From Sulfuriferula multivorans (GTDB lineage Bacteria > Pseudomonadota > Gammaproteobacteria > Burkholderiales > Sulfuriferulaceae), in NCBI RefSeq assembly GCF_003851125.1, contig NZ_BGOW01000003.1, positions 186,001-250,000 of the forward strand: 64,000 bases of DNA. The letters are read 5' to 3'. The position numbers and the translations under genes were made by a program. The notes beneath the pieces are model-generated. The model was not told the DNA's origin, did no database searches, and saw only the letters and a list, made by a program, of their open reading frames with translations. Below, piece by piece: positions 698-32,342 of this stretch (the first letter of the stretch is position 1; each line of letters opens with the position of its first letter).

Positions 698-1561
698 ATG
701 GCTGCCGGAAAAGAGATACGCACCAAGATCAAGAGCGTGGAAAACACGCGCAAGATCACCCGCGCCATGGAAATGGTGGCGGCTGCAAAAATGCGCAAGG
801 CTCAGGAACGCATGCGCGCTGCGCGCCCGTACGCCGAGAAAATCGGCAACGTGGCTGCCCACCTGTCCCAAGCCAACCCGGAGTATAAGCACCCGTTCGT
901 GGTCAAGCGCGAGAACGAAAAGCGCGTCGGCCTGATCGTGGTCACCACCGACAAAGGCCTGTGCGGCGGCCTCAACACCAACGTGCTGCGTCTGGTAGTG
1001 AACAAGATGAAGCAGTGGGATGTGGCCAAGCTGGGTGTGGATGTCACCGCAATTGGCAACAAGGGGTTGGGCTTCATGCAGCGTACCGGGGCCAACGTGG
1101 TGTCACACATGATTGCGCTGGGCGATACGCCGCATATGGAACGGCTGATCGGCCCGGTCAAGGTGATGCTGGATGCCTACATGGAAGGCAGGATTGATGC
1201 CCTTTATGTGGTGTACAACCGCTTCGTCAACACCATGAAACAGGAACCGACGCTTACCCAGTTGTTGCCGCTGGCTGCCGAACCAAGTGACAAGCCGGTG
1301 CACCACTGGGACTACATCTATGAACCGGATGCCAAATCGGTAGTGGATGGCCTGTTGACGCGTTACATTGAGGCGCTGATTTATCAGGCGGTGGCTGAAA
1401 ACATGGCGAGCGAGCAAAGTGCGCGCATGGTGGCGATGAAGGCCGCCTCAGACAACGCCAAAAACGTGATCGAAGAGCTCAAGCTGGTCTACAACAAGAC
1501 CCGTCAGGCCGCGATCACCAAAGAACTCTCCGAGATCGTGGCTGGTGCCGCGGCCGTTTAA
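698..1561 (+). CDS. atpG: F0F1 ATP synthase subunit gamma
   Basis: Central rotor shaft of F1, 287 residues, the normal length. The N-terminal [20 protein letters not shown] and the C-terminal helix (about residues 250-287, ending in [14 protein letters not shown]) are the two parts of the coiled coil that penetrates the alpha3beta3 ring. The motif [10 protein letters not shown] around residue 86 is typical of the family. The ATG lies 13 bases after the atpA stop and 27 bases separate its stop from the atpD start. Confidence 0.97.
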
Positions 1562-2965
<1,404 letters not shown>

Positions 2966-3028
2966 TAATACCGGCCACGGCGCAGGCATCGTCTGCGCCG
3001 GATGAGCGAACACAGGGAAGCGAGATTT

Positions 3029-3451
3029 ATGGCCATGACCATTCATGTAGACATCGTCAGCGCAGAAGCTGAATTGTTCTCCGGCACCGCGGAATACGTG
3101 GTGGTACCGGCAGAAATGGGTGAAGTGGGGATTTACCCACGACATACCCAGATGCTGACACGCATCAAGCCCGGAACGGTGCGCATCAAAAAGCCTGACG
3201 TTGCAGAGGAAGAAGTTATTTATGTTTCCGGCGGTATGCTGGAAGTGCAGCCTAACGTGGTGACCATCCTGTCCGATACCGCTATTCGCGGCCACGATCT
3301 GGATGAGGCCAAAGCGCTGGAAGCCAAGCGCCATGCTGAAGAAGCCATGCGTAACCGCGCTTCGGAAATGGATTACGCCAAGGCACAGGTAGAGTTGGCC
3401 GAAGCGGTTGCGCAGATTGCGGCTATCCAGAAATTGCGCAAGCATAGTTGA
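3029..3451 (+). CDS. atpC: F0F1 ATP synthase subunit epsilon
   Basis: Regulatory epsilon subunit of F1, 140 residues from the ATG at 3029, with GGAAGCGAG about five bases upstream; in-frame codons from 3002 are a less likely start. It has the N-terminal beta-sandwich ([35 protein letters not shown]) and the C-terminal two-helix region rich in Ala and Glu. It is the last gene of the atp operon and is followed by an intrinsic terminator at 3471-3498. Confidence 0.96.
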
Positions 3452-4956: not shown

Positions 4957-5979
4957 ATGCCTTACCAGATTACCATTCAACCCAGCGGTCACATTGTTCA
5001 TGCGGATGACGACGAAACCATACTCGCCGCCGCGCTGCGCGAAGGCTATATGCTGCCCTACGGCTGTCGCAACGGCGCTTGCGGTACCTGCAAGGGCAAG
5101 CTGGTGGCGGGCGAGATCGATTATGGCGAATACCAGTCCGGCGCGCTGTCCGACGCCGATATCGACGCAGGCAAGGCGTTGTTCTGCGTAGCGCGTCCGC
5201 TCAGCAACATCAGCATCGAGTGCCGCGAAGTCGGCGCAGCCAAGGACATCCAGATTAAAACCCTGCCGTGCCGGGTACACAAGCTCGAGCGGCTTGGCCA
5301 TGATGTGATGGCGCTGCACCTCAAACTGCCCGCCAACGAGCGCCTGCAATTCCTCGCCGGACAATATATCGATATTTTGCTCAAGGACGGCAAGCGCCGC
5401 AGTTTCTCGCTCGCCAATGCGCCGCATAACGACGACTACCTGCAACTGCATGTGCGCCATATCCCGGGCGGCGAGTTCTCCGAGCATATTTTTACGCGCA
5501 TGAAAGAGAAGGACATCCTGCGCTTCGAAGGGCCGCTAGGCAGCTTTTTCCTGCGCGAAGACAGTGGCAAACCCATTATCTTCATGGCCGGAGGTACCGG
5601 CTTTGCCCCAGTCAAAGCCATGCTCGAACATGCCTTCCATCACCACGTTGACCGCGAGATGGTGTTGTACTGGGGGGCACGCCAGTTACGCGATTTATAC
5701 ATGCCGCAGCTGCCCGGCCAGTGGCAGCAGGAATACCCCAACTTCACCTTCATTCCGGTACTGTCCGAGCCCGTTCCGGAGGATGCCTGGCCTGGCCGTA
5801 CCGGGCTGGTCGCCGACGCCATCCTGCAGGATTTCCCGGATTTGTCCGGCTACCAGGTCTATGCCTGCGGCGCACCGGGGATGGTGGATGCTGCGCATAA
5901 AACCTTTCTCCAGCACGGCCTGCCGGAAGACGAATTTTTTGCCGATGCATTCCTGTACCAGTCCACGCCCGCCAAGTAA
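4957..5979 (+). CDS. [2Fe-2S] ferredoxin/FAD-dependent NAD(P)H oxidoreductase (CDP-6-deoxy-glucoseen reductase type)
   Basis: A 340-residue electron-transfer flavoprotein. Residues 1-90 form a plant-type ferredoxin domain with the cluster motif CRNGACGTC and a fourth cysteine in ALFCVARP. It is followed by an FAD-binding domain (RRSFSLANAP) and a NAD(P)-binding domain (MAGGTGFAPVKAML; the final YACGAPGMV). A GAGGAAG ribosome site precedes the ATG. Proteins of this type are often annotated as CDP-6-deoxy-delta-3,4-glucoseen reductase or as the reductase of oxygenases, but no oxygenase is near. It is the first gene of a co-directional run leading into the hyf-like cluster and could deliver electrons to that complex (inference). 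Confidence 0.88.
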   Translation: MPYQITIQPSGHIVHADDDETILAAALREGYMLPYGCRNGACGTCKGKLVAGEIDYGEYQSGALSDADIDAGKALFCVARPLSNISIECREVGAAKDIQIKTLPCRVHKLERLGHDVMALHLKLPANERLQFLAGQYIDILLKDGKRRSFSLANAPHNDDYLQLHVRHIPGGEFSEHIFTRMKEKDILRFEGPLGSFFLREDSGKPIIFMAGGTGFAPVKAMLEHAFHHHVDREMVLYWGARQLRDLYMPQLPGQWQQEYPNFTFIPVLSEPVPEDAWPGRTGLVADAILQDFPDLSGYQVYACGAPGMVDAAHKTFLQHGLPEDEFFADAFLYQSTPAK

Positions 5980-6021
5980 GGGCATGGCATTAACGGCAAC
6001 ATCCAGCCGCATTAACCAAAC

Positions 6022-7218
6022 ATGATTGCCGGCATTCCCGTCGAATTCATCCTGTTCGCGCTTACCCTGCTGGGCGTGGCGGTGTTGCACCGCCACAATC
6101 TGCCCATCGCGCTGGCCGGGCTGGCAGCGATTGGCGCGTATAAATGGCTGGCGCAGGACTATGCGCTGGCGCTGCATTTCCTGCACGAATGGAAGCTGGT
6201 GCTGAATCTGCTCGGCCTGCTGCTGGGCTTTGCGATCCTGGCGAAGCATTTCGAAGATTCCGGTGTGCCCGACCTGATGCCGCGCATCCTGCCCGATGAC
6301 TGGAAGGGCGGCTTTGTGTTGCTGATCCTGGTGGCGCTGATGTCGACTTTTCTCGACAACATCGCTGCCGCCATCCTGGGCGGCGTGGTGGCGCGCAAGG
6401 TTTTCAACGGTCGCGTCAGCGTGGGCTATCTGGCGGCGATCGTCGCGGCCAGCAATGCCGGCGGCGCAGGTTCGGTGGTGGGCGATACCACCACCACCAT
6501 GATGTGGATTGCGGGGGTGCCTGCGCTGCACGTTGCCGATGCATTTATTGCGTCGAGCGTGGCGCTGCTGGTGGTGGGCGTGTTTGCCAGCCGCGCCCAG
6601 CATCGTTATCAGCCGATCCAGGCCGACCCGCGCAGCGGTGTGCATGTGGATGCTGAAGAACTTGGGATTCTGAGTGTCGTGGTGCTGACGCGGGTGCTGG
6701 TGGCAGGGCTGATTATCGGCGGTGCGGTGGCGGGCAATGTGCTGGTGGATTTCCCCGCGCTGGGGGCATGGATCGCAGTGCTGATCGGTGGCCTGTTCCA
6801 TCCCATCCCCTGGGCCGAGGCGAAAAACGCCTGGAAGGGAACGCTGTTCCTGATCGCGCTGGTGCTGGCCGCGTCACTCATGCCGGTGGCCGCACTGCCG
6901 CTGCCCAGTTGGCATACCACGCTGGGCCTGGGCTTCGTCAGCGCCGTGTTCGACAACATTCCGCTCACCGCGCTGGCATTGAAGCAGGGCGGCTACGACT
7001 GGGGCATGCTGGCGTTCGCCGTGGGTTATGGCGGTTCGATGATCTGGTTCGGTTCCTCCGCAGGGGTGGCCATCTGCAACGGCTTTCCTGAGGCCAAAAA
7101 CACCTGGCAATGGATCAGGCAGGGCTGGTTTGTGCCGGTAGGCTATGTGCTGGGGTTCTTCGTGCTGCTGGCGCTGCTGGGCTGGCATCCGGACGCGCTG
7201 AAAGCGACCGGCGCCTAG
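6022..7218 (+). CDS. NhaD-like Na+/H+ antiporter-family membrane protein (ion transporter superfamily)
   Basis: A 398-residue integral membrane protein with about ten to twelve hydrophobic segments. The segments STFLDNIAAAILGGVVAR and IVAASNAGGAGSVVGDTTTT around residues 105-165 resemble the DN and NAGG-GD-TTT signatures of NhaD-type sodium/proton antiporters; a second half-repeat contains SAVFDNIPLTALALKQGG. It starts 43 bases after the reductase and is followed closely by hyfB. A citrate- or arsenite-type permease of the same superfamily is the alternative. Confidence 0.75.
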   Translation: MIAGIPVEFILFALTLLGVAVLHRHNLPIALAGLAAIGAYKWLAQDYALALHFLHEWKLVLNLLGLLLGFAILAKHFEDSGVPDLMPRILPDDWKGGFVLLILVALMSTFLDNIAAAILGGVVARKVFNGRVSVGYLAAIVAASNAGGAGSVVGDTTTTMMWIAGVPALHVADAFIASSVALLVVGVFASRAQHRYQPIQADPRSGVHVDAEELGILSVVVLTRVLVAGLIIGGAVAGNVLVDFPALGAWIAVLIGGLFHPIPWAEAKNAWKGTLFLIALVLAASLMPVAALPLPSWHTTLGLGFVSAVFDNIPLTALALKQGGYDWGMLAFAVGYGGSMIWFGSSAGVAICNGFPEAKNTWQWIRQGWFVPVGYVLGFFVLLALLGWHPDALKATGA

Positions 7219-7302
7219 CCGGGGTGTGGCGTACTGCCGTGACCTGATCGCCATGCGTTGGGTGACAGGGGCACGCAGATGGTGCTATTGTCGAAGCCGA
7301 TT

Positions 7303-9330
7303 ATGGACAGTCTTACAGCGATCCTGTTTAGTCCCTTGCCGATAGATGTGATGCTCGGCGTCATCGTGCTCTGGATCGCGCTGGGAGTGCTCGGTCTGTT
7401 CGCCCCGCTGAGTCTGCGTTTTGTAGGGCACGTCCTGTTTCCGCTGGGTGCAGTGGGCGGGCTGATCCTGGCAGGTGCAGGCCTGATCGGCATGGCGGCG
7501 CGGCCGGAGACGGCCGTCCTGGTGCTGGGGCTGCCCGGCTTGCCTTTTCACCTGCGGCTGGACGCCCTGTCGGCATTTTTCCTGGTGCTGCTCGGAGCCG
7601 TGTCAGCCGGGATTTCGATTTATTCGGCCGGCTATTTCCGTAAAGACGAGGGCACGTCACCCGGCATGCACGGCCTCCTGTATCACTTTTTCCTCGCCGC
7701 GATGGCTTTGGTGATGCTTGCCGACGATGCGTATCTGTTCATGGTGGCGTGGGAAACGATGGCGCTGTCTTCGTACTTCCTGGTCACCAGCAACCACAAG
7801 GTTCCCGAAATCCGCCGCGCGGGTTTTCTTTACCTGTTGATCGCCCATCTCGGTGCCATTGGCATTCTGTTGAGTTTTGGCGTCATGCAAGGTGGGCATG
7901 GCGACTATACTTTCGCGACTATGCGCACCAGCCATCTGAGCGAATTCTGGGCAAGCGCGACATTTCTTCTGGCGCTGTTCGGTTTCGGCGCCAAGGCGGG
8001 AATTTTGCCGCTCCATGTCTGGCTGCCGGAGGCCCACCCAGCCGCGCCGTCGCCAGTGTCCGCGCTGATGAGCGGCGTGATGCTGAAGACGGCGATCTAT
8101 GGATTGCTGCGTGTGACTTTCGACCTGTTGCAGACGCAACTGTTGTGGTGGGGCGTGCTGGCGCTGTTGCTGGGCCTGCTGACTGCGCTGTTCGGCGTGA
8201 TGTTCGCGGCGGTGCAGACCGACATGAAACGCCTGCTCGCGTATTCTTCGATCGAGAACATCGGCATCATTCTGGTGGGCATCGGGCTGACGCTGATTTT
8301 CCATGTCTATGCGCTGGGCGCGCTTGCCGCCCTCGCGCTGGCGGCGACCCTGTATCACTGCCTCAACCATGCGTTTTTCAAAAGCCTCCTGTTCCTGGTC
8401 ACCGGCACGGTGCTGCACTCGACCAGGGAACGCAGTCTGGGCAAGTTGGGCGGCCTGATCCGCAGCATGCCCTGGGTCGCATGGCTGGCGTTGATCGGCA
8501 CCCTTGCCATGGCCGGGCTGCCGCCGCTCAATGGTTTTGTCTCGGAATGGCTGTTGCTGCAGGCGTTTCTGGCGACCCCGAGCCTGCCCAGTTCCTACCT
8601 GAGCATGCTGGTGCCGGTGGAGGCAGCGGCGGTGGTGCTCGCCATCGCACTGGCGGGCTATGTCATGGTCAAGTTCTACGGCGTGATCTTTCTCGGCCAG
8701 CCGCGCGAGGCAAGGCTGGCCACCGCGCACGATGCCAATTGGCTGGAGCGGATTGGCCTCGGCTGGCTTGCGCTGGGTTGCATTGCGCTCGGCCTGGCGC
8801 CGGTGTTCGTGCTGCTGCAGCTGGATCAGGTTACCCGGCTGCTGACCGGACATACAGTAGGCGCTACGGCGGCCCAGTCCGGCTGGCTGTTCGTCGTAGC
8901 GACGACCCCTGAACACGCGAGCTACAGTCCGCTGCTGTTTCTGCTCGGCATCTTGGCCTTGCTGCTGCTGACTTTCGTGCTGGTGCGCAAACTCTACCAT
9001 GGGCGCATGCGGCGCGGTCCGGCCTGGGATTGCGGTTATCCGCAGCAAACGGCGCGCATGCAGGATACGGCGGAAGGCTTCGGGCAGCCGATCAAACAGA
9101 TCTTCGAGCCGTTTTTCCGCATTGAGCGCCAGATGCCGAGTCCGTTCGATGCGCACCCCCATTATCAGGGCAAGGCGGAGGACAAGCTGTGGTACGCGCT
9201 CTACCTGCCCATCGCGCGGCTGGTCGAGCGCATCTCCCTGAAGATGAGCACATTACAGCATGGCCGCATCCACATTTATCTGCTGTACAGCCTTGTCACG
9301 CTGCTGTTCCTGCTGCTGTTTACCCGATGA
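7303..9330 (+). CDS. hyfB: Hydrogenase-4 subunit B-like antiporter-type membrane subunit
   Basis: An Mrp/NuoL-type ion-translocating subunit of about 675 residues. The start is uncertain: ATG at 7303 is used, with in-frame candidates at 7258 and 7279. Many transmembrane helices are present with the family's charged residues, including the helix-5 Glu in VAWETMALSSY, lysines in FGFGAKAGILPLH, and the WLPEAHPAAPSPVSALMSG signature. The C-terminus carries the WDCGYP region followed by a last helix, as in HyfB proteins. Its stop overlaps the hyfC start by four bases (ATGA), implying coupled translation. Confidence 0.88.
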   Translation: MDSLTAILFSPLPIDVMLGVIVLWIALGVLGLFAPLSLRFVGHVLFPLGAVGGLILAGAGLIGMAARPETAVLVLGLPGLPFHLRLDALSAFFLVLLGAVSAGISIYSAGYFRKDEGTSPGMHGLLYHFFLAAMALVMLADDAYLFMVAWETMALSSYFLVTSNHKVPEIRRAGFLYLLIAHLGAIGILLSFGVMQGGHGDYTFATMRTSHLSEFWASATFLLALFGFGAKAGILPLHVWLPEAHPAAPSPVSALMSGVMLKTAIYGLLRVTFDLLQTQLLWWGVLALLLGLLTALFGVMFAAVQTDMKRLLAYSSIENIGIILVGIGLTLIFHVYALGALAALALAATLYHCLNHAFFKSLLFLVTGTVLHSTRERSLGKLGGLIRSMPWVAWLALIGTLAMAGLPPLNGFVSEWLLLQAFLATPSLPSSYLSMLVPVEAAAVVLAIALAGYVMVKFYGVIFLGQPREARLATAHDANWLERIGLGWLALGCIALGLAPVFVLLQLDQVTRLLTGHTVGATAAQSGWLFVVATTPEHASYSPLLFLLGILALLLLTFVLVRKLYHGRMRRGPAWDCGYPQQTARMQDTAEGFGQPIKQIFEPFFRIERQMPSPFDAHPHYQGKAEDKLWYALYLPIARLVERISLKMSTLQHGRIHIYLLYSLVTLLFLLLFTR

Positions 9331-10262
9331 TCTCTTCCATTTTCTCCCAGCTATTCCAAACCCTGCTCATCGTGGTGCTGGCACCGCTGCTGCTGGGCTG
9401 GGTCAATCAATGCCGCGCCTGGCTACAGAACAAGCGCGGTGCCGGGGTGTTGCAGCCGTACCGGGTTTTGCACAAGCTGTTCCATAAAGACGCGGTACTG
9501 GCGGACAATGCATCGTCCCTGTTCCGCACCGCCCCGTATATCCAGTTCGCTTGCATGGTGCTGGTCGCGAGCATTGTTCCGATGGTGGCGACGGACCTGC
9601 CATTTGCCGCGGCTGCCGACGTCATCGCGCTGGTGGGATTGTTCGCGCTGGCGCGGCTGTTCGCGGCGCTCGCGGCCATGGACATCGGCACCGCGTTCGG
9701 CAGTATGGGTGCGCGGCGCGAGATGCTGGTGGCCAGTCTGGCGGAACCGGCTCTGCTGATGATACTTTTCACGCCTGCGCTGATCGCCCATTCCACCTCG
9801 CTCACCACCATCGTCGAGGCGCTCGCACACCGGGAATTCGTGCTTTATCCCAGTCTCGCCTTCGCCGCCGTGGCTTTTGCGATGGTGGCGCTGGCCGAAA
9901 ACGCCCGCATCCCGGTCGATAATCCCGCCACCCATCTGGAACTGACCATGATCCACGAGGCCATGATTCTCGAATATTCGGCGCGTCACCTGGCGCTGAT
10001 CGAATGGGCAAGCGCAATCAAACTGAGCAATTACAGTGCAATCGGGATCGCCTTGTTTCTGCCGTGGGGTATCGCCAGTGCGGGTGACTGGAACGCCGTA
10101 CCGCTGGCATTGGCGGTGCTGTTCGTTAAGCTGCTGCTGGGTGGCGCCGGGCTCGCCCTGCTGGAGACCCTGTCGGCCAAGCTGCGCATTTTTCGCGCAC
10201 CGGAATTCCTGGGAACCGCCTTTCTGCTTGCGGTTCTGGGGATGCTGATGCTGGAGCTGTAA
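9327..10262 (+). CDS. hyfC: Hydrogenase-4 subunit C-like (NuoH-like) membrane subunit
   Basis: A 311-residue membrane protein homologous to the NuoH/HyfC subunit, which anchors the peripheral arm. Near the N-terminus KRGAGVLQPYRVLHKLFHKD is the conserved cytoplasmic loop, and AENARIPVDNPATHLELTMIHEAMILEYSAR (in two parts, about residues 190-220) is the hallmark acidic loop of the family. The ATG overlaps the hyfB stop (ATGA). Confidence 0.9.
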   Translation: MISSIFSQLFQTLLIVVLAPLLLGWVNQCRAWLQNKRGAGVLQPYRVLHKLFHKDAVLADNASSLFRTAPYIQFACMVLVASIVPMVATDLPFAAAADVIALVGLFALARLFAALAAMDIGTAFGSMGARREMLVASLAEPALLMILFTPALIAHSTSLTTIVEALAHREFVLYPSLAFAAVAFAMVALAENARIPVDNPATHLELTMIHEAMILEYSARHLALIEWASAIKLSNYSAIGIALFLPWGIASAGDWNAVPLALAVLFVKLLLGGAGLALLETLSAKLRIFRAPEFLGTAFLLAVLGMLMLEL

Positions 10263-10265
10263 ACG

Positions 10266-10925
10266 ATGGCTACATTTACCGGACAACTGATTAATTTTCT
10301 GGCGGCACTGCTGCTGTTGATCGCCTTCGCCATGCTGTCGCAGCGGCGTATTCTTTCCCTGATCCACTTGTTCGCCTGGCAGGGGTTCATACTGGCGCTG
10401 AGTACCACGGTAGTGGCGTACTCTACCCACCAGCCGCATTTGTATTATTCGGCCTTTTTAACCCTGGTACTGAAGGCGTTCCTGCTACCCTGGATACTGC
10501 ACCGGTTGATTATCCGCCTCAATATCAAGTGGGACGTGGAAACCATGATCAACGTCCCGACGACCATGCTGGTCGGCATCGCCCTGGTGATCTTCGCCTT
10601 CAACCTGGCGGCGCCCATTTCGCAACTGGCCGACACCATTACCCGCAGCACCCTGGGCATCGCCATGGCCAGCGTACTGTTGTCGTTCCTGATGATGATT
10701 ACCCGGCACAAGGCCGTGGCTCAGGTGGTCGGCTTCCTGGCGATGGAAAACGGGCTGTTCTTTGCCGCCACCAGTGCCACTTACGGCATGCCGATGGTGG
10801 TCGAGCTGGGCATCGCGCTTGACGTGCTGGTGGGAACCTTCATTTTCGGCATTTTCTTCTTCCAGATCCGGGAAACTTTCGACAGTCTGGATATTAAAAA
10901 TCTGGAAAAACTGAAAGAGGATTGA
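10266..10925 (+). CDS. hyfE: Hydrogenase-4 subunit E-like (NuoK-like) membrane subunit
   Basis: A 219-residue, very hydrophobic protein with about six to seven membrane segments. The C-terminal two thirds resemble NuoK (KAVAQVVGFLAMENGLFFAA, with the conserved membrane Glu in MEN, and GIALDVLVGTFIFGIFFFQI). HyfE proteins are longer than NuoK by an N-terminal extension, as seen here. It starts three bases after hyfC and ends just before hyfF. Confidence 0.88.
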   Translation: MATFTGQLINFLAALLLLIAFAMLSQRRILSLIHLFAWQGFILALSTTVVAYSTHQPHLYYSAFLTLVLKAFLLPWILHRLIIRLNIKWDVETMINVPTTMLVGIALVIFAFNLAAPISQLADTITRSTLGIAMASVLLSFLMMITRHKAVAQVVGFLAMENGLFFAATSATYGMPMVVELGIALDVLVGTFIFGIFFFQIRETFDSLDIKNLEKLKED

Positions 10926-10926
10926 G

Positions 10927-12375
10927 GTGGAAATTCTTTGGCTATTGGGAGTTCCTCTGTGCGGCGGGATATTGCTGGCCCTGTTCGGCCACAAGCACTG
11001 GGCGCATGAACTCAATACGCTGATGAGTCTGGCCACCTTCATTGCCGCTGTCGTTCTCACCGTCCGCATCGTCAACGGCGGGCCAATGACGGCGTTCAGC
11101 GAACAGTTCTTCATCGACTCGTTCAACGTTTTCCTGGTTGCACTGACTGCCTTCGTGGGATTCACCACTGCGCTGTTTTCGCGCGCATACATGCGCATCG
11201 AACAGCACCACGGCAAGCTGTCGGCGAACATGCTGCGCCTCTACCACAGCATGTACCAGCTGTTCACCTTTACCATGCTGCTGGCGCTGACCACCAACAA
11301 CATGGGCATCCTGTGGGTGGCGATGGAAGCGGCCACCCTCACCACCGTGCTGCTGGTCAGCCTGTACCGCACCCCGGCCAGCCTGGAAGCGGCGTGGAAA
11401 TACTTCATCCTGTGCGGCGTGGGTATCGCGCAGGCGCTGTTCGGCACCATCCTGCTGTATTTCGCGGCGGAAAAACTACTCGGCGCCGGCGGCAACGCGC
11501 TGCTGTGGACCCACCTCAACGAGGTGAAAGGCCATCTGGAACCTACCGTGCTGTCGCTGGCATTTGTCTTTCTGCTGGTGGGCTACGGCACCAAAGTCGG
11601 GCTGGCGCCGCTGCACAACTGGCTGCCGGATGCCCATGCCGAAGGTCCGACGCCGGTGTCCGCAGTGCTTTCCGGTTTGCTGCTCAACGTCGCGCTGTAC
11701 GCGGTGGTGCGCAGCAAGGTGCTGGTGGATGGGGCGCTCGGATCGCACCTGGCCGGCAACCTGATGATGGGGTTCGGCCTGTTCAGCGTGGTGGTTGCGG
11801 CGTTTTTCCTGTCGCGGCAAAAAGACGTCAAGCGCATGTTCGCCTATTCCTCGATCGAGCACATGGGCCTGATGACCTTCGCGTTCGGCATGGGTGGCGC
11901 GGTCGCCACTTTCGCCGCGTTGCTGCACATGACGGTGCACTCGCTCACCAAGTCCGCCATCTTCTTTACAGTGGGGCATGCGGCACAGAAAATGGGTTCG
12001 CAGCTGATCGAAAACATCCGCGGCCTGATCGATACCAATCCCACCATCGGCTGGGGCTTGATGCTGGGCAGCCTGGCCATCCTCGGCATGCCGCCGTTCG
12101 GCGTATTCGCCAGTGAATTCCTGATTATTACCACTGCCATGCATGAGCATCCCTGGGCCACGCCGTTCCTGCTGGTCGCGCTGGGGGTCGCCTTCGCGGC
12201 CATTTTCACCCGGGTGCAGGAAATGGTGTTCGGTGAAACGACGGGCCAGCGTTTGCCGCATCCGCCCGCGCTGATTCCGGTATTTGTGCATCTTGCCCTG
12301 GTGTTGCTGCTCGGGCTGTATATCCCGCCGTATCTTGCCGACTGGTACCGCCAGGCAGCGCGGTTGATTGGTTGA
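10927..12375 (+). CDS. hyfF: Hydrogenase-4 subunit F-like antiporter-type membrane subunit
   Basis: A second Mrp/NuoN-type ion-translocating subunit, 482 residues, with a GTG start one base after the hyfE stop. Family signatures are the Glu in LWVAMEAATLTTVLLVSLY and the motif GYGTKVGLAPLHNWLPDAHA followed by GPTPVSAVLSG. Together with HyfB it gives the complex two candidate ion channels. About fourteen hydrophobic segments are apparent. Confidence 0.9.
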   Translation: MEILWLLGVPLCGGILLALFGHKHWAHELNTLMSLATFIAAVVLTVRIVNGGPMTAFSEQFFIDSFNVFLVALTAFVGFTTALFSRAYMRIEQHHGKLSANMLRLYHSMYQLFTFTMLLALTTNNMGILWVAMEAATLTTVLLVSLYRTPASLEAAWKYFILCGVGIAQALFGTILLYFAAEKLLGAGGNALLWTHLNEVKGHLEPTVLSLAFVFLLVGYGTKVGLAPLHNWLPDAHAEGPTPVSAVLSGLLLNVALYAVVRSKVLVDGALGSHLAGNLMMGFGLFSVVVAAFFLSRQKDVKRMFAYSSIEHMGLMTFAFGMGGAVATFAALLHMTVHSLTKSAIFFTVGHAAQKMGSQLIENIRGLIDTNPTIGWGLMLGSLAILGMPPFGVFASEFLIITTAMHEHPWATPFLLVALGVAFAAIFTRVQEMVFGETTGQRLPHPPALIPVFVHLALVLLLGLYIPPYLADWYRQAARLIG

Positions 12376-12384
12376 AGGAGCCAC

Positions 12385-13926
12385 ATGCGTATCGAAGATT
12401 TTGACCTTGCATTGTCTCCGCTTCCCGGTGCGGCACCGGTGTGGCACGGCGATGTGGATGCCGCAGCATGGCGTCAGGTCTGCCAGCAGGTGCATGACAA
12501 GGGCGGGCGTCTGGTCGCGCTGTGGGGAAGCGATCGACGCGAACTGCGGCGTGGCTTTGTCGTGCACGCGGCGTTGGTCATCCGTTCCGGGCTGGTGTGG
12601 CTGACGCTGTCCGCCGACCATGAAGCGTATCCTGGCATTGACGATATTTTCCCGGTGGCGAGCCGCATGCAGCGCGCGCTCGGCGACTTGCTCGGCATTT
12701 ATCCGCACAACCCGCAGGATGCGCGTCCGTGGCTGCGGCACAGCGCCTGGCCAGCAGACCAGTATCCGTTGCGCAAGGATTTCGACGGCAGCACCGTGCA
12801 CCCTGCCACAGCGCAGGATTACCCGTTTGTCACTGTGGAAGGCGACGGCGTGCACGAGATTGCAGTCGGGCCGGTGCACGCCGGGACGATTGAGCCCGGC
12901 CATTTCCGCTTTTCGGTGATAGGCGAAAAAATCCTGCGCCTGGAACCGCGCCTGGGCTACACCCACAAGGGCGTAGAAAAGCTGTTTGAGGCGATGACGC
13001 TGGAGAGCGGGGCGCGGCTCGCGGGGCGGATCAGTGGCGATTCCACCGTCGCCTACGCATGGGCCTACGCGATGGCGGCGGAAAGCGCGGTGGATAGGAC
13101 GCCGCCCGAGCGGGCGCTGTGGCTGCGTGCCCTGCTGCTGGAACGCGAGCGGCTGGCCAACCACCTGGGAGACCTGGGCGCACTGGGCAACGATGCCGGT
13201 CTGGCCTTTGGCCTGGCACAGTTCTCCTGTCTCAAGGAAGACCTGCTGCGCAGCAACGCGGCGCTGTTCGGACACCGCTACCTGATGGACAGCATTGTTC
13301 CCGGTGGCGTGATAAGCGATCTGGATGAAAGCGGTGGCGCTCGACTGATGGCCGAGCTCGACGTGCTCGATCAGGCCGTCAGCCGTTTGCACAACATCTA
13401 CGACGACCACGCGGGGCTGCAGGATCGCTTTATCGGGGCCGGCCGGGTTGCCCCGGAACTGGCCGTCGGCCTAGGGCTGTGCGGACTGGCGGGGCGTGCG
13501 AGCGCACAGGCCTGGGATCTGCGTGCGCAGTTTCCGGCGGTGCCTTATGACAGGCTGGATGTGCAGATGGCGACACACCGCAACGGCGATGTCGCGGCGC
13601 GGGTGACGGTTCGCTTTGACGAGGTGAACGAGGCAATACGCCTTTGCCGTCTGATTCTGAAGGGGTTGCCGAGCGGCGCGATTTTCACGGCGCTGCCAAA
13701 AGCCCCCGACAACGCGATTGGCGTGGGCTGGGTGGAAGGCTGGCGCGGCGAGGTCTTTGTCGCGCTCGAAACAGGAGCAGACAATCGCATCCGCCGCCTG
13801 CATCCGCATGACCCGTCGTGGCAGAACTGGCCGCTGATCGAGCACGCGGTGATGGGCAATATCGTTCCGGATTTTCCGCTCATCAATAAATCGTTCAACT
13901 TGAGTTATAGCGGGCACGATTTATGA
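12385..13926 (+). CDS. hyfG: NiFe-hydrogenase/complex-I large-subunit-like protein (HyfG-like, fused NuoC-D) without NiFe cysteines
   Basis: A 513-residue fusion of a NuoC-like N-terminal domain (about 1-130) and a NuoD/HyfG-like large-subunit domain (HEIAVGPVHAGTIEPGHFRF, about 157-176). In true hydrogenases two CxxC motifs bind the NiFe site. Here the first is RISGDS (Ser217, Ser220 in place of both Cys) and the second is DPSWQNW (Ser478, Asn481), so no NiFe centre can be coordinated in the known way. The remaining large-subunit core looks intact. This matches energy-converting-hydrogenase-related (Ehr) complexes rather than a hydrogenase. What it reacts with is unknown. Confidence 0.9.
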   Translation: MRIEDFDLALSPLPGAAPVWHGDVDAAAWRQVCQQVHDKGGRLVALWGSDRRELRRGFVVHAALVIRSGLVWLTLSADHEAYPGIDDIFPVASRMQRALGDLLGIYPHNPQDARPWLRHSAWPADQYPLRKDFDGSTVHPATAQDYPFVTVEGDGVHEIAVGPVHAGTIEPGHFRFSVIGEKILRLEPRLGYTHKGVEKLFEAMTLESGARLAGRISGDSTVAYAWAYAMAAESAVDRTPPERALWLRALLLERERLANHLGDLGALGNDAGLAFGLAQFSCLKEDLLRSNAALFGHRYLMDSIVPGGVISDLDESGGARLMAELDVLDQAVSRLHNIYDDHAGLQDRFIGAGRVAPELAVGLGLCGLAGRASAQAWDLRAQFPAVPYDRLDVQMATHRNGDVAARVTVRFDEVNEAIRLCRLILKGLPSGAIFTALPKAPDNAIGVGWVEGWRGEVFVALETGADNRIRRLHPHDPSWQNWPLIEHAVMGNIVPDFPLINKSFNLSYSGHDL

Positions 13927-13932
13927 GGAATC

Positions 13933-14457
13933 ATGCACAAGATCATTAGACAGATATTACGGTCGGGCATAAAAACCGAGACGCCGCCGGAGAGTAACGA
14001 CGCATTGCGCTGCACTGCCCAGCGCTTGCAGGATGAAATCCTCAGGCGCTTTGGCGGCGCGCTGGCGATTCGTCACGTGGATGCCGGTTCGTGCAACGGT
14101 TGCGAACTCGAAATCCACGCTCTCAGCAACCCGTATTACAACCTGGAAGGGCTCGGCATTCATTTTGTCGCCAGCCCGCGGCATGCAGACATGCTGCTCG
14201 TTACCGGCCCGGTTTCGCGGCATATGGAAACGGCCCTGCAGCGCACCTATGCAGCCATGCCGGAGCCGAAACTGGTGGTGGCAATCGGTGATTGCGGCTG
14301 TACCGGGGGGGTATTCGGAGAAAGTTATGCGAGTTGCGGGCGCGTGTCCAACGTGATCCCGGTGGATATTGCCGTCCCAGGTTGTCCGCCCAGCCCTTCT
14401 GCGCTCATGCAAGGCATCCTGACGGGGATCAGCAACGCGCAGGGGCTAGCCAAGTAG
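13933..14457 (+). CDS. hyfI: Complex-I/hydrogenase-4 small-subunit-like [4Fe-4S] protein (NuoB/HyfI-like)
   Basis: A 174-residue NuoB-family protein carrying the proximal [4Fe-4S] cluster ligands: Cys54 and Cys57 in SCNGCE, Cys121/123 in GDCGCTGG and Cys151 in PGCPPSP. The cluster therefore seems retained even though its partner has lost the NiFe site. It is the last gene of the run. No hyfA- or hyfH-type ferredoxin subunits are present in the cluster. Confidence 0.92.
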   Translation: MHKIIRQILRSGIKTETPPESNDALRCTAQRLQDEILRRFGGALAIRHVDAGSCNGCELEIHALSNPYYNLEGLGIHFVASPRHADMLLVTGPVSRHMETALQRTYAAMPEPKLVVAIGDCGCTGGVFGESYASCGRVSNVIPVDIAVPGCPPSPSALMQGILTGISNAQGLAK

Positions 14458-14522: not shown

Positions 14523-15083
14523 TCAGAATTCGTTCTGCAGCTTTTTGTAACCCTTCACCAGGTTGATGTTGGTCTGCGCCACATCTTCGGAAAAGTCTTC
14601 TTCGCGGAACCCGACCTGTTCGATTTTGCTGAGATCAGAATCGGCATGGATGTTGGTGGTGGAGGGGATGTGGAAACCGTCGGGCAGTTCGCAGCCTTCC
14701 ACTACTGAATTGTGGCGCACTACGCAGCGCTTGCCCACTACACAGTTGAACAACACCGAGTTGAAGCCGATGAAGACGTTGTCGCCGACCACGCATGGGC
14801 CATGCACGATGGAACGGTGGGCGATGGAGGTGTGTTCGCCGATCTGCACCCGCGCGCCGGATTTGGAGTGGATCACGACGCCGTCCTGGATGTTGGAATT
14901 GGCGCCGATGGAGATCGGTTCCATATTGCCGCTGTCATCCACCTCGTCGGCACGAATGACTACATAGGGGCCGATAAATACATTTTCGCCGATGTGCACC
15001 TTGCCGCAAATAATCGCGGTGGGGTCGACAAACGCGGATTCGTGAATGACGGGAAGATCACCGCTGGGATTTTTGCGGATCAT
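14523..15083 (-). CDS. Gamma-class carbonic anhydrase (Cam-type left-handed beta-helix protein)
   Basis: A 186-residue hexapeptide-repeat protein that would interconvert CO2 and bicarbonate. The zinc ligands of archaeal Cam correspond to His72 (VVIHSK), His89 (SIAHRS) and His94 (IVHGP); Arg44, Gln66 and Asp67 also match. Unlike many bacterial homologues it has an acidic-loop insertion (about residues 46-55) and the Cam-like C-terminal helix (about 150-186, ending in NLVKGYKKLQNEF), which argues for real carbonic anhydrase activity. Its ATG overlaps the SulP stop by four bases (ATGA). Confidence 0.9.
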   Translation of the reverse strand: MIRKNPSGDLPVIHESAFVDPTAIICGKVHIGENVFIGPYVVIRADEVDDSGNMEPISIGANSNIQDGVVIHSKSGARVQIGEHTSIAHRSIVHGPCVVGDNVFIGFNSVLFNCVVGKRCVVRHNSVVEGCELPDGFHIPSTTNIHADSDLSKIEQVGFREEDFSEDVAQTNINLVKGYKKLQNEF

Positions 15084-16864
15084 GTGCGTGGCTCTCCATT
15101 GGGTAGCGCAATATTACATTGCGTGAAAATGCGTGCAGTACAGGCGCGACAGATTTCCGGGTCGAGCTTGGAATAGATCGCGTCGATCGGGCGCGATTTG
15201 GTGGGGAAAATATGGTCTTCGCCGATGTCGTTCAAATAATGACCTTTTACCAGTAGATCGCGCACTCCATTTTGCATCCGGTAGAAATACAGTCCGCCCC
15301 CAATTTTGTTGCGGCGCTTGGCTTCTTGCGCCAGCATTTCTGCGCCGGCCACGTCTACGAAATTCATGCCGCCGGCAGCAATCAATGCGTGTTTCTGCTG
15401 TGGGTTAATCTCGTCAATCCGTTGCAAGGCCTGCTGCACGTGGTTAACCGCGCCAAAGAAAATCGAGCCTTGCAGGCGGATCATTTTGAGTTGCGGGCAT
15501 TCTGGGCGGCTATCCGCAGCGACAAAATGGTAGCTGTCCGGTTCCGGATCTGGCATCACATCCACCAGCGCCGGACGTGAGGTGCGGTACAGATAGAGCA
15601 TCAGCGACAACATGATGCCGAAGAAAATGCCTTTTTCCAGATCAATCAGCGTACCGATGATCGTCACCGCCAGCACCGCCGTTTCCTGTTTGCTGGTATG
15701 GAAAATGGAATGGATATGGTGGAAGTCAATCAGCGCCCATGCCACCAGGAACAGAATACCGGCCATCGCCGCCGTCGGCAGGTAGGCGGCGAGTGATGCC
15801 ACCAGCATCAGGATCAGGATCAGGAACAGTGCAGAATACACCGCAGCCAACGGGGTTCTTGCGCCTGCAGCATAGTTCACGCCGCTGCGATTGAACGAGC
15901 CACTGGAAGCATAGCTGGAAAAGAAACTGCCGAAAATGTTGGATAAGCCCTGGCCGATGAATTCCTGATTTCCGTCAATGCGTTGCTCGGATTTCACCGC
16001 GATGGCGCGCGAGATCGATACCGCTTCAGTCAGCGCCAGCATGGTCACAATCAGCGCCGGGAAAATCACCTGGCTGATGGCTGTGGGCGAAAAATCCGGC
16101 AGAGTGAACGGTGGCAGGTGGGCAGCCAGCGCGCCGACAGTTTTGATGTGGGTGGCTTCGGCACCGCCTGCCAGGTTGTTGATGATGATAGCGGCCACGC
16201 TACCCACCACCATGGCAATAATCATGTACAGCTTGGGCATCAGTTTGCGCGCCACGATGCCGGTGAGCAGGGTGATGACACCCACAGCGGTGACGTAAGG
16301 ATTGATTTTGTCCAGTTGCAGAAACACCTGATGCAGAATCTCGTGGAAAGGCAAGCCCCGGGCCATGTTGAGCCCAAGGAAGTGCTTGATCTGGCTGGCT
16401 GCGATCAGCACCGCTGCACCCGCGGTAAAGCCGATCACCACGGTGTGCGAAATGAAGTTGACCAATGCGCCCATGCGCGCCAGGCCCATGATGAGCTGGA
16501 AGATTCCGGTGAGGAAGGTAAGGGTAAGTACCAGGCTGATGAACTGTGCCGATCCGGGTTCGGCCAAAGGACTGATCGAGGCAAACACGGCTATCGAAAT
16601 GGCAGTGGTCGGACCCGACACCAGGTGCCAGCTGGACCCGAACAGCGCGGCAATTACCGCAGGGACCATTGCCGCATACAAACCATACTCTGGTGGTAGG
16701 CCGGCAATGGTGGCAAACGCCACGCCTTGCGGCAGCACGATCATTGCCCCGGTCAGGCCCGCTGTCAGGTCTGTCTTGGTAGTATTGCGGTTGACTATCG
16801 GCCACCAGCGCAGAAATGGGAAAACTTTATACAGCCACAGATTGCAGGCGAGCAGGTCTTTCAA
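15080..16864 (-). CDS. SulP-family anion transporter with STAS domain (putative bicarbonate or sulfate transporter)
   Basis: An inner-membrane SLC26/SulP transporter of about 594 residues. It has a core of about fourteen membrane segments beginning DLTAGLTGAMIVLPQGVAFA, and a cytoplasmic STAS domain near the C-terminus (MIRLQGSIFFGAVNHV to NFVDVAGAEMLA). A Cys-rich tail follows (CRACTARIFTQC). The start is uncertain: no ATG fits, and TTG at 16864 behind GAGGTG is preferred over a TTG at 16951. Translational coupling to a carbonic anhydrase favours bicarbonate as substrate; sulfate remains possible. Confidence 0.85.
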   Translation of the reverse strand: MKDLLACNLWLYKVFPFLRWWPIVNRNTTKTDLTAGLTGAMIVLPQGVAFATIAGLPPEYGLYAAMVPAVIAALFGSSWHLVSGPTTAISIAVFASISPLAEPGSAQFISLVLTLTFLTGIFQLIMGLARMGALVNFISHTVVIGFTAGAAVLIAASQIKHFLGLNMARGLPFHEILHQVFLQLDKINPYVTAVGVITLLTGIVARKLMPKLYMIIAMVVGSVAAIIINNLAGGAEATHIKTVGALAAHLPPFTLPDFSPTAISQVIFPALIVTMLALTEAVSISRAIAVKSEQRIDGNQEFIGQGLSNIFGSFFSSYASSGSFNRSGVNYAAGARTPLAAVYSALFLILILMLVASLAAYLPTAAMAGILFLVAWALIDFHHIHSIFHTSKQETAVLAVTIIGTLIDLEKGIFFGIMLSLMLYLYRTSRPALVDVMPDPEPDSYHFVAADSRPECPQLKMIRLQGSIFFGAVNHVQQALQRIDEINPQQKHALIAAGGMNFVDVAGAEMLAQEAKRRNKIGGGLYFYRMQNGVRDLLVKGHYLNDIGEDHIFPTKSRPIDAIYSKLDPEICRACTARIFTQCNIALPNGEPRT

Positions 16865-17028
16865 GGTGCACCTCAGAGTCGTAAGTCGCTTTAAAAAGAG
16901 CGAGGCAGGGATAAACAGCGGAATTATCTGATATTTAACCCCTTGCGGCAAACTGCGTGTCTCGCTTGGCGTGGTCGACGCCAGCCGTTTCCGCTAAACT
17001 GCAGGGCAATGTCGAACCCGTAAAACCC

Positions 17029-30614: not shown

Positions 30615-32342
30615 ATGGCGAAGAAAAAAGTACTATCTGGAGCAGCTACCGATGCCGGGCTCAAGCCCGAGGAATCCGTTCGTCAGAGGGTAATCCGCGA
30701 TCTTCGGCAATTGGGGTGGGCTGAGACGCGCCTCCGCTGGAAGCCGGAATGGCCAGTTCCGGCAACGCCGCACGACCTAACCAAACGCGAACGCGGTCAA
30801 AAATTTGAAATATGCGGTAGCACTGACTTGGTAGCGTTTGCGGACGATAGTGGCGAATGGCACGCACTTCAAATTATCTTTGAGTTCAAGGCTCCAAATA
30901 TCGATGCTGGACGCTCACAACTTGTCCGCTACCTCAGCGCGGAACCAATGGCAAAAATGGGGTACTGGACCAATGGATCCCAAAGCCTTGCGATTTATAA
31001 GCGACATACTTGTGAATGGGTTTTTGAACAAGGCGCCGCGCTGCCTCACCCTAGTGACGACCTTACTCAACCCCCAACAACTCCCCCGACATGGAACACA
31101 TTACGAATCCCTACCGAAGCAGAGCTGACAGGGGCATTAAAAAGACTTGTAGCAACCACGGTAGTGAGCGATGCCAACGTAAATCGCAGAGAAGAGCAGC
31201 TTCGGGAACTCCTTCACATCATTCTAACGAAACTCGAAAGTGACGCTATTTCCAGCCGTTCTGCAAATCAGGACAAACCAGTCAGCTTCCGAATCTACGG
31301 GGACAATCTAACTAAGGTCGCCTTAACTGCGAAGGAAATCCGGGACCAATTTAAGGCGTATTTTGATAAGCAGAGAACCAGAATCTTCCTGCCAAGCGAT
31401 AGAGACGTAATTCTATTGAGCAGTGAAACGATATTTGCTGTTGTTGCTGAATTAGCACCTTTTCGCATCCTCGGTGATCACGTGGATCTTCTTGCCAAAG
31501 CCTTCCAAATTTTCAGGACGCAAGCTTTAAAGAGCGCGGAAGGTCAGTTTCTAACCCCGCTTCGTATCGTCCGTCCCGCTGTCATGGCAATGGATATCAC
31601 CTCCGAAGACAAAGTTATTGACCCGGCATGCGGCACTGGCGGATTCATTGTAGAAACCTTGCGCCAAGTAACAGACCGTGAATTTCCTAGTGAGGCAGAA
31701 GCTTGGAACATGGTGAAATGGGCCAACGACAACCTGTATGCAGTGGATAAAGATGATATCGGCATTAAGCTGACTCGAGCCATCATGGTTGCGATGCGCG
31801 ATGGCTCCACACACGCACTCCTTGGAGACGCTGTGCGAGTACATCACTGGGCGACAAAATACCCGAAACTTGCTCAGGAACTAAGTCAACCAGACAACAC
31901 TGGTAACGATACCCCCGACGTTTATGAACAATTCACTGTAGTAATTACCAATCCACCGTTTGGTGAAAACCTGAAAGTTAAGGGTGCGGACTGCCGCGCG
32001 TCGAAATACACAATCTCGGTCGCCGCTGCAATGAAAGGCCCGACGGACTACTGCGATCTCGAAATCGGGCTAGTCTATTTGGAGCTAGCGCACCGACTTC
32101 TGCAGCTTGGTGGTCGTGTAGGGATTGTGCTTCCCGAAACATACTTTTTCAGCTTCTCTTATCGGTGGTTGCCTGGGTGGCTCAAAAATCGCTTCGAGCT
32201 ACGCGGAATGATAAACATCCCAATGGAAGCATTTGAGGAATTCTGCCGAGCCAAGACCAACTTCTACATATTTGAAAAAGTCGGCCATGGGGCCGAGGAA
32301 GTTTGTGACGCTGATAACATAAACCCAATAAAGGAGGCATGA
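30615..32342 (+). CDS. Restriction nuclease-N6-adenine methylase fusion (HsdR_N-like plus HsdM-like, type IIG/BcgI-A style)
   Basis: A 575-residue protein. Residues 1-130 resemble the N-terminal nuclease domain of type I R subunits, with an ordered D (STDLVAF) and ExK (IIFEFKAPN) as in PD-(D/E)xK nucleases. Residues 300-560 are an N6-adenine methylase with SAM motif DPACGTGGFI and catalytic NPPFG. No separate hsdR is present, so cleavage would have to come from this chain. It overlaps the specificity gene by ATGA, with AAGGAGG just upstream. Codon use is less GC-biased than in neighbouring genes, suggesting transfer. Confidence 0.82.
   Translation: MAKKKVLSGAATDAGLKPEESVRQRVIRDLRQLGWAETRLRWKPEWPVPATPHDLTKRERGQKFEICGSTDLVAFADDSGEWHALQIIFEFKAPNIDAGRSQLVRYLSAEPMAKMGYWTNGSQSLAIYKRHTCEWVFEQGAALPHPSDDLTQPPTTPPTWNTLRIPTEAELTGALKRLVATTVVSDANVNRREEQLRELLHIILTKLESDAISSRSANQDKPVSFRIYGDNLTKVALTAKEIRDQFKAYFDKQRTRIFLPSDRDVILLSSETIFAVVAELAPFRILGDHVDLLAKAFQIFRTQALKSAEGQFLTPLRIVRPAVMAMDITSEDKVIDPACGTGGFIVETLRQVTDREFPSEAEAWNMVKWANDNLYAVDKDDIGIKLTRAIMVAMRDGSTHALLGDAVRVHHWATKYPKLAQELSQPDNTGNDTPDVYEQFTVVITNPPFGENLKVKGADCRASKYTISVAAAMKGPTDYCDLEIGLVYLELAHRLLQLGGRVGIVLPETYFFSFSYRWLPGWLKNRFELRGMINIPMEAFEEFCRAKTNFYIFEKVGHGAEEVCDADNINPIKEA

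Follow-up and report, generated by a model that had tools for sequence, protein, structure and literature searches.

We identify, in a 64,000-nucleotide stretch of the Sulfuriferula multivorans genome (hereafter the window; positions 186,001 to 250,000 of contig NZ_BGOW01000003.1, G000:C3:186001-250000 in our numbering, from an assembly of 3.6 Mb on 87 contigs), a run of six genes, hyfBCEFGI, whose predicted products are those of an energy-converting hydrogenase-related (Ehr) complex of the six-gene type already in print. The large subunit has lost its NiFe ligands, the pump and cluster residues of the other subunits are conserved, and the run lies repeatedly beside genes for SulP-family transporters, carbonic anhydrases or RuBisCO. 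Our best reading is that an Ehr ion pump may have been recruited repeatedly to bicarbonate accumulation; that the six-subunit pump of the window works within a bicarbonate island and aids the gathering of inorganic carbon is a tentative proposal, to which we give a probability of about 0.4. The repeated company of SulP, carbonic anhydrase and RuBisCO genes supplies a concrete and testable hypothesis on the role of Ehr complexes. Cupriavidus, Thiobacillus and Acidithiobacillus can be grown in the laboratory.

Gene content of the region

The genes of the region are listed below with the family models that they match.

4957-5979, + strand: [2Fe-2S]/FAD/NAD reductase (PF00111, PF00970, PF00175), a neighbour and not a dedicated partner
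6022-7218, + strand: NhaD-like gene (TIGR00775, 58 bits, cut-off 577; unmatched in Pfam)
7258-9330, + strand: hyfB, antiporter-like subunit of the NuoL type (NCBIfam hydrogenase 4 subunit B, 885 bits, cut-off 667)
9327-10262, + strand: hyfC, NuoH-like subunit (PF00146)
10266-10925, + strand: hyfE, small membrane subunit (NF008556, hydrogenase 4 membrane subunit, 87 bits, below the cut-off of 136)
10927-12375, + strand: hyfF, second antiporter-like subunit of the NuoM/N type (NF005045, 893 bits, cut-off 543)
12385-13926, + strand: hyfG, fused NuoC/NuoD-like large subunit (PF00346, PF00329 and alignments)
13933-14457, + strand: hyfI, NuoB-like subunit with the cysteines of one [4Fe-4S] cluster (PF01058)
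14523-15083, - strand: gamma-carbonic anhydrase of the Cam/CcmM type (NF053794, CcmM, 132 bits, below the cut-off of 550), convergent with hyfI and a possible functional partner
15080-16951, - strand: SulP-family anion transporter with a STAS domain (TIGR00815, 380.8 bits, cut-off 380.45; PF00916, PF01740)

The hyfB and hyfC genes overlap by 4 bases, and the gaps from hyfC through hyfI are 3, 1, 9 and 6 bases, in agreement with the tightly packed run described in an earlier reading of these letters made without database searches (the sequence-only reading). Runs of the same type were recovered in dozens of genomes, so the run exceeds chance. The true hyfB start is more likely an ATG slightly inside the listed open reading frame. 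The reductase and NhaD-like genes lie upstream in the same direction, as that reading also stated, separated from one another by 42 bases. It had further noted that HyfA and HyfH are missing; we find that genes for HyfA, HyfD, HyfH and HyfJ are all absent from the run, the rest of the genome not having been searched for them, and that the run holds no electron-input subunits of the NuoI or NuoEFG type. What it did not mention are the two convergent genes just downstream, where the near end of the gamma-carbonic anhydrase (gamma-CA) gene lies 65 bases past hyfI on the opposite strand and is overlapped in turn by the SulP gene (15080 against 15083).

The large subunit lacks both known active sites

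HMMER ranks formate hydrogenlyase subunit 5 (7z0s, 200 bits) first among the alignments of HyfG, followed by the 49-kDa chains of complex I. A MAFFT alignment of 125 sequences, among them E. coli HyfG and the NuoD of the same genome as the window, sets the two NiFe motifs of E. coli HyfG, CGIC and CYSC, against Ser217-Gly-Asp-Ser220 and Ser507-Tyr-Ser-Gly510 of the window protein, respectively, with the C terminus only three residues beyond the second. Ser217 and Ser220 had been correctly named as replacements in the sequence-only reading, but its second pair, Ser478 and Asn481, is ruled out, as these residues align with Thr and Asn of E. coli HyfG; its conclusion that no ligand is left holds with Ser507 and Gly510 in their place. 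Among 117 Ehr rows of the alignment, in which the window is counted twice and a gap does not score as Cys, 109 lack all four NiFe cysteines and eight retain one. The loss of the site also withstands a check for alternative cysteines of NiFe or any other function, since Cys occupies at most 50 of the 117 rows in any column; the window protein has Ile500 and Leu506 at columns where some relatives carry Cys. A lack of NiFe maturation genes is rejected as the cause of the cysteine loss, as the genome has a HypD match.

The quinone site of complex I is likewise missing. At the positions of the quinone pair, which we take to be His38 and Tyr87 of Nqo4, the same alignment places Ile169 and Gly218 in HyfG, and His and Tyr in the genome's own NuoD. 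Because both sets of residues are replaced, HyfG has neither a NiFe nor a quinone active site. The region around the former NiFe site is strongly conserved nonetheless: over 42 sequences Arg215, Gly218 and Asp219 are invariant, and Asn501, Lys502, Ser503, Asn505, Tyr508 and Gly510 are conserved at 90% or more.

Pump and cluster residues are conserved

HyfI retains its [4Fe-4S] cysteines, as had been claimed from the letters alone, with Cys54, Cys57, Cys121 and Cys151 being Cys in 146, 146, 146 and 144 of 146 homologues, respectively. The passage of PMC13144422 that describes the proton path of NuoL includes Glu144 and Lys229, which correspond to Glu166 and Lys246 of HyfB. These two residues, along with His371 and Glu430, are invariant across 129 HyfB homologues; the NuoL ion-pair partners Arg175 and Asp178 are His197 and Ala200 in HyfB. 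In HyfF, Glu134, Lys223, His312 and His338 are invariant over 152 homologues, with Glu397 present in 151, and in HyfC, Glu140, Glu205 and Glu216 are invariant over 138. The earlier impression that both antiporter-type subunits are intact is borne out by the key residues of HyfB and HyfF, and the complex, if assembled from these subunits, looks capable of ion pumping and of binding one [4Fe-4S] cluster.

SulP and carbonic anhydrase genes recur beside the cassette

We read the surroundings of the cassette in three sets of loci, from the order, from named records and from the class. The order set comprises 35 orthologous regions, taken from some of the Ehr genomes and exclusive of the distant loci L069-L072. 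Counts of neighbours within 5 kb required at least 2.5 kb of upstream flank, which left 33 of 35 order, 52 of 80 named and 36 of 43 class loci and retained a few contigs shared by two samples; neighbour genes for clustering were predicted with a codon-bias caller. In the order, a SulP gene lies within 5 kb of the cassette at 8 of 33 loci (window included) against 0.29 expected, an excess of about 28-fold, and by family in 6 of 18 against 0.21 expected. For this comparison the L065 genome, which has only a SulP fragment, was scored as unlinked and L067, a second copy in G118, was left out. Random placement, simulated 200,000 times, never attained the observed count, whether by loci or by families. 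When gamma-CA and CsoSCA-like anhydrases are counted along with SulP, nine of 33 order loci plus the window have such a neighbour; the same holds for 8 of the 52 named loci and, outside the order, for 2 of the 36 class loci. SulP is also present at L080, L129 and L150, which have shorter flanks, and near the cassette at L213 of the class sample.

On a FastTree tree of 118 loci, from which short proteins and five loci present in two samples had been dropped, 12 changes are required to account for the linked state (20 loci), at least nine of them on well-supported branches. Shuffling the state gave a mean of 18.7 changes, with none of 500 shuffles as low as 12. The linkage is recurrent and clustered on the tree, with gain and loss indistinguishable, and because at least nine changes are forced by well-supported branches it is not one inherited accident.

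SulP and/or gamma-CA genes stand co-directionally just 5' of hyfB in L042, L063, L064, L104, L083, L131, L152 and others. L042 has SulP, gamma-CA, a second SulP and hyf all in one direction, and the gamma-CA match lies 17 bp upstream of hyfB in L065, 95 bp in L104, 418 bp in L063 and 330 bp in L064. At L036, L088 and L196 a CsoSCA-like anhydrase adjoins hyfI; PF20686 matches these proteins weakly, at 25-31 bits in L036 and L088 and not at all in L196, and TIGR02701 gives 36-37 bits in L088 and L196 against a cut-off of 241. The most extensive arrangement is that of G031 (L036, L157, L158), with several names assigned by eye: SulP, response regulator, kinase, second SulP, hyf, CsoSCA-like anhydrase, LysR and cbbL, followed by a small putative cbbS gene, by cbbQ- and cbbO-like genes and, further along, by a beta-carbonic anhydrase gene. 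L088, from a Thiobacillus metagenome-assembled genome (MAG), has gamma-CA, response regulator, second SulP and hyf, then a CsoSCA-like anhydrase gene and a LysR gene for which CbbR is the nearest match (252 bits, cut-off 450).

Two further neighbours recur. A sigma-54-type response regulator, often with a histidine kinase, adjoins the cassette in L036, L038, L042, L066, L088, L147 and L150, a recurrence that spans beta- and gammaproteobacteria; PF00158 is found in the L042 protein, and the regulator is a candidate for responding to CO2 limitation. In other Burkholderiales (L097, L101, L123, L098, L099 and others, and in L256) a different gene, cluster c8, recurs beside the cassette. It may be the 'fused MFS/spermidine synthase' that adjoins hyfB in a Variovorax record.

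The cassette occupies a slot in a SulP and anhydrase island

Within the genus, G000 (the window's genome) and G001 share the order reductase, NhaD, hyfBCEFGI, gamma-CA, SulP, RsmB, and G003 has both ends of this order on separate contigs. G016, a genome 75% complete, has mscL, epimerase, reductase, NhaD, SulP and RsmB, with neither hyf nor gamma-CA between NhaD and SulP. G011, G012 and G014 have NhaD, SulP3, gamma-CA, SulP and RsmB, and G013 and G017 have the same series from SulP3 onward without NhaD. The Ehr cassette, lying between NhaD and gamma-CA/SulP, thus fills a slot within an island of SulP and anhydrase genes. In alignments with carbonic anhydrases of known structure (1thj, 3oup and others) the gamma-CA keeps the three histidines of the zinc site, which in Cam are His81, His117 and His122, and its relatives include chains of solved mitochondrial complex I entries.

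The sequence-only reading had proposed a redox- or ion-gradient-driven pump fed by its own reductase and accompanied by its own antiporter gene. The pump part of this proposal fits an Ehr complex with conserved pump residues; the reductase part does not survive a survey of co-conservation. The reductase is present in 39 of 41 genomes, many of them without Ehr, which leads us to reject it as a dedicated partner, and in Ehr genomes it lies mostly on another contig or more than 40 kb away. Among the loci read, the order reductase-NhaD-hyf, whose conservation was that reading's own test, occurs only in the window's genome, G001 and G003, and the 5-kb neighbour scan found a reductase near the cassette only in the window, in L034 and in L072 (a 32% match at a distant group-4-like locus). 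In G016 the reductase and NhaD genes are adjacent with no Ehr match. The NhaD-like gene, found in 19 of 61 genomes at E 1e-30, has SulP and anhydrase genes beside it in G011, G012 and G014, three sister species that lack Ehr, contrary to its assignment as the antiporter gene of the complex. G013 and G017 have the SulP/anhydrase island without NhaD, and in other genomes NhaD was seen with no SulP/anhydrase link. Judged by its neighbours, the NhaD-like gene belongs to the bicarbonate island and not to the Ehr complex.

Distribution and association with RuBisCO

HyfG orthologues occur in 40 of 120 order-sample genomes (hand-listed) and, at E 1e-80, in 44 of 369 class-sample genomes, the window's own genome being included in both. 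Among the best 80 of 581 records are Gallionella, Sideroxyarcus, Thiobacillus, Rhodoferax, Thiomonas, Sulfuritalea, Accumulibacter, Paraburkholderia, Thiorhodococcus, methanotrophs and Nitrospirae. In most loci uncut by contig ends the unit consists of these six genes; its neighbours vary in most of the gammaproteobacterial and Nitrospirae loci read. HyfG homologues on replicons of Cupriavidus, Variovorax and Paraburkholderia are 52-64% identical to that of the window.

The window's genome has three RuBisCO matches and one DabA match, and RuBisCO matches are found in 16 of 17 genomes of the genus, the exception being the incomplete G016. In the order, 27 of 40 Ehr genomes have RuBisCO versus 27 of 80 others (Fisher p 0.0008, uncorrected for kinship), and outside the window's own genus the counts are 19 of 32 versus 18 of 70 (p 0.0017, likewise uncorrected). 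Ehr as a partner of RuBisCO across the class is rejected, at 22 of 43 versus 146 of 325 (Fisher p 0.52). Individual loci do join the two. In L109, a Thiomonas MAG, hyfI is followed by form-II RuBisCO, CbbQ and a von Willebrand-type (VWA, cbbO-like) gene, with a LysR gene on the opposite strand; among the class loci, L191 carries, on the opposite strand and 4-6 kb downstream, cbbX, cbbS and a cut cbbL, and L209 has cbbQ/cbbO upstream of the cassette, identified by a BLAST match to L109 only. In Acidithiobacillus ferrooxidans, separate passages of PMC2621215 give the six-gene cluster as AFE2149-54 and form-II RuBisCO as AFE2155, and PMC6458275 gives cbbM, cbbQ, cbbO and cbbR as AFE_2155-2158; the hyf and cbb locus tags are consecutive, and the passages cited do not connect them.

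In the window's genome the DabA match (C85:8103-11054; L155, L156) lies between two RuBisCO large-subunit matches (5128 and 24170). This arrangement makes it probable that the organism possesses more than one system for inorganic carbon.

Relation to known complexes

As in the Ehr complexes described in passages of PMC6349859 and PMC10284858, the window's genes specify a group-4-hydrogenase/complex-I architecture with a large subunit that lacks all four NiFe cysteines, encoded alongside Mrp/NuoL-like and NuoH-like membrane subunits, and the kinship with Ehr suggested in the sequence-only reading is thus well founded. The passages of PMC6349859 leave the function of Ehr open, with redox-coupled ion translocation suspected, and propose a formate dehydrogenase partner; in the window none is adjacent, and SulP and carbonic anhydrase genes stand there instead. 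The same six genes are described in Cupriavidus (PMC2864759), A. ferrooxidans (PMC7735108, PMC2621215) and Nitrospira (PMC5596200), where HydDB is said to class the A. ferrooxidans large subunit as a non-hydrogenase; the passages concerned draw no link to SulP or carbonic anhydrase, both of which lie nearby in the window. The locus tags given for hyfBCEFGI of Cupriavidus necator H16 are H16_A2196-A2201 (PMC2864759). Genetics for the six-gene type come from Hyq of Azorhizobium caulinodans, for which the relevant parts of PMC3357923 and PMC2650096 claim H2 activity. By description, hyqBCEFGI shares the six genes, a HyqG without CxxC and four HyqI cysteines, and differs in its regulator HyqR, its nitrogen-fixation control, the claimed activity and three conserved HyqG cysteines. 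No conserved cysteines like these three are found among the 117 HyfG rows, an alignment that does not contain HyqG itself.

E. coli hydrogenase-4 (hyfABCDEFGHIJ) has homologues of HyfB, C, E, F, G and I, but also has the NiFe cysteines and HyfA, HyfD, HyfH and HyfJ; with neither these cysteines nor A, D, H or J in its run, the window complex is not a group 4 NiFe hydrogenase, and without the quinone His/Tyr pair and NuoI/NuoEFG it is not complex I. A NiFe-type Hyf large subunit with CGVC and CYSC intact does lie directly 5' of an Ehr cassette on the same strand at L077:1977-11605, together with HyfE, HyfF and HyfI homologues, and this locus is possibly a living snapshot of the ancestor next to its derivative. 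Cyanobacterial NDH-1MS has its own Cup proteins, none of which is in the Ehr run. Like NDH-1MS, DAB2 uses complex-I-type proton subunits to serve inorganic carbon uptake in the account given in part of PMC13144422; DAB has its own DabA, and the Ehr run has no DabA but only anhydrase and SulP genes nearby in some lineages. The genome's one DabA match is on another contig (C85).

Among the matches listed for open-licence PMC papers, no title or abstract start points to a gene link between Ehr and bicarbonate. Neither 'hydrogenase' nor 'complex I' occurs in the main text of a 2024 review of the dissolved inorganic carbon toolkit, and 'hyf' does not occur in that of a C. necator fitness paper (PMC11540253).

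Competing explanations

In the proposed mechanism, the Ehr complex would be a relative of complex I that moves protons (or sodium ions), has just one [4Fe-4S] cluster and lacks a hydrogenase site; electron transfer through HyfI and HyfG would drive its ion pumping. SulP would bring in HCO3-, probably with Na+, gamma-CA would interconvert HCO3- and CO2, and the NhaD-like carrier would cycle Na+/H+, so that Ehr pumping would pay for, or pH-balance, Na+-coupled bicarbonate import. Several observations weigh against this proposal. The anhydrase and SulP genes of the window lie on the strand opposite hyf; the window SulP, a possible bicarbonate transporter, scores 170 bits with the BicA model, far under the cut-off of 880, and its gamma-CA neighbour is the only hint of HCO3- transport. 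The run holds no HyfH/NuoI-type ferredoxin gene, leaving the complex without a known electron donor. Most Ehr loci lack a SulP/anhydrase neighbour, and RuBisCO does not track Ehr across the class. Finally, genus members without Ehr retain SulP and gamma-CA, so Ehr is not required for that system. Because such members exist, because most loci outside the order have no such neighbours and because RuBisCO tracking is absent class-wide, the activity of Ehr is probably a general one, tied to carbon uptake in some lineages. A more far-reaching form of the proposal is distinctly unlikely: that Ehr, gamma-CA and SulP constitute a further complex-I-derived carbon-accumulating system besides NDH-1MS and DAB, in which ion pumping by a hydrogenase emptied of its site would power the build-up of bicarbonate, the anhydrase being attached to the membrane arm as gamma-anhydrases are in plant complex I.

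A general-purpose redox pump with no tie to carbon, carried as a mobile six-gene cassette that can settle at several permissive sites, the bicarbonate island among them, is doubtful but deserves serious consideration. It would suit the varied neighbours elsewhere, the Ehr genomes without a RuBisCO match (13 of 40 from the order and 21 of 43 from the class) and the cassettes on Cupriavidus, Variovorax and Paraburkholderia replicons, but not a SulP linkage about 28 times expectation in the order that reaches 6 of 18 families and recurs on the tree, nor the anhydrases and RuBisCO operons that also adjoin some loci. We consider it fairly unlikely that the complex runs in reverse, the proton gradient pushing electrons uphill to yield a low-potential reductant for CO2 fixation in chemolithoautotrophs. 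A reductive role driven by the proton motive force is proposed for AFE2149-54 in a passage of PMC2621215, and the cbb genes at L109, L209 and L191 are in keeping with it, yet the run has no ferredoxin-type (HyfH/NuoI) or NADH subunit, the quinone positions are Ile169 and Gly218, and both the SulP/anhydrase neighbours and the hosts without RuBisCO would go unexplained.

Vectorial CO2 hydration, in which the pump drives or is driven by hydration with gamma-CA docked or the emptied HyfG pocket involved, much as DAB and NDH-1MS work with other anhydrases, seems quite improbable to us: the close gamma-CA genes at L065, L104, L063, L064 and in the window, the complex I chains related to gamma-CA, the conservation around the former NiFe site and the coupling of a NuoL-like with an anhydrase-like subunit in DAB (described in PMC13144422, in part) all speak for it, but gamma-CA is retained in genus members without Ehr and is missing from most Ehr loci. 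Chances are slimmer still for a hydrogenase with a non-NiFe site, like the 'endo-hydrogenase' Hyq. Mutant H2 balances do assign H2 uptake and evolution to the six-gene hyq, whose HyqG lacks both CxxC (passages of PMC3357923 and PMC2650096); these are whole-cell balances, with no cell-free assay at hand, and the authors themselves hold a NiFe site in HyqG to be uncertain, if not unlikely (PMC3357923). In our alignment, moreover, Cys exceeds 50 of 117 rows in no column, and at positions where some relatives do carry it the window's HyfG has Ile500 and Leu506. A pump receiving its electrons from the adjacent reductase is hardly credible, for despite the shared strand, the 42-base gap to NhaD and the order common to G001 and G003, the reductase occurs irrespective of Ehr and, in the scanned loci, near the cassette only in the window, L034 and L072.

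Other features of the window

An Rfam scan of the window gave no match at gathering scores, and neither promoter-like sites (7 versus 3.9, standard deviation 1.8, in shuffles) nor terminator-like sites (17 versus 13.4, standard deviation 3.9) gave a usable signal. Just upstream of the island, with mscL between, is the apparent end of an ATP synthase operon (698-3451; atpG, atpD and atpC, assigned by eye). At 30615-33376 an N6-methylase protein has a sub-threshold restriction-type match at its N terminus, and the end of its gene is overlapped by 4 bases by that of a 345-residue protein with no Pfam match; the two are possibly a restriction-modification or defence pair. The segment 45761-58859 encodes, with roles assigned by eye, an MFS transporter, a nitrite/sulfite-reductase-type protein and a molybdopterin oxidoreductase with a BFD domain, as well as a fused PP2C phosphatase/protein kinase, and is a probable nitrate assimilation cluster.

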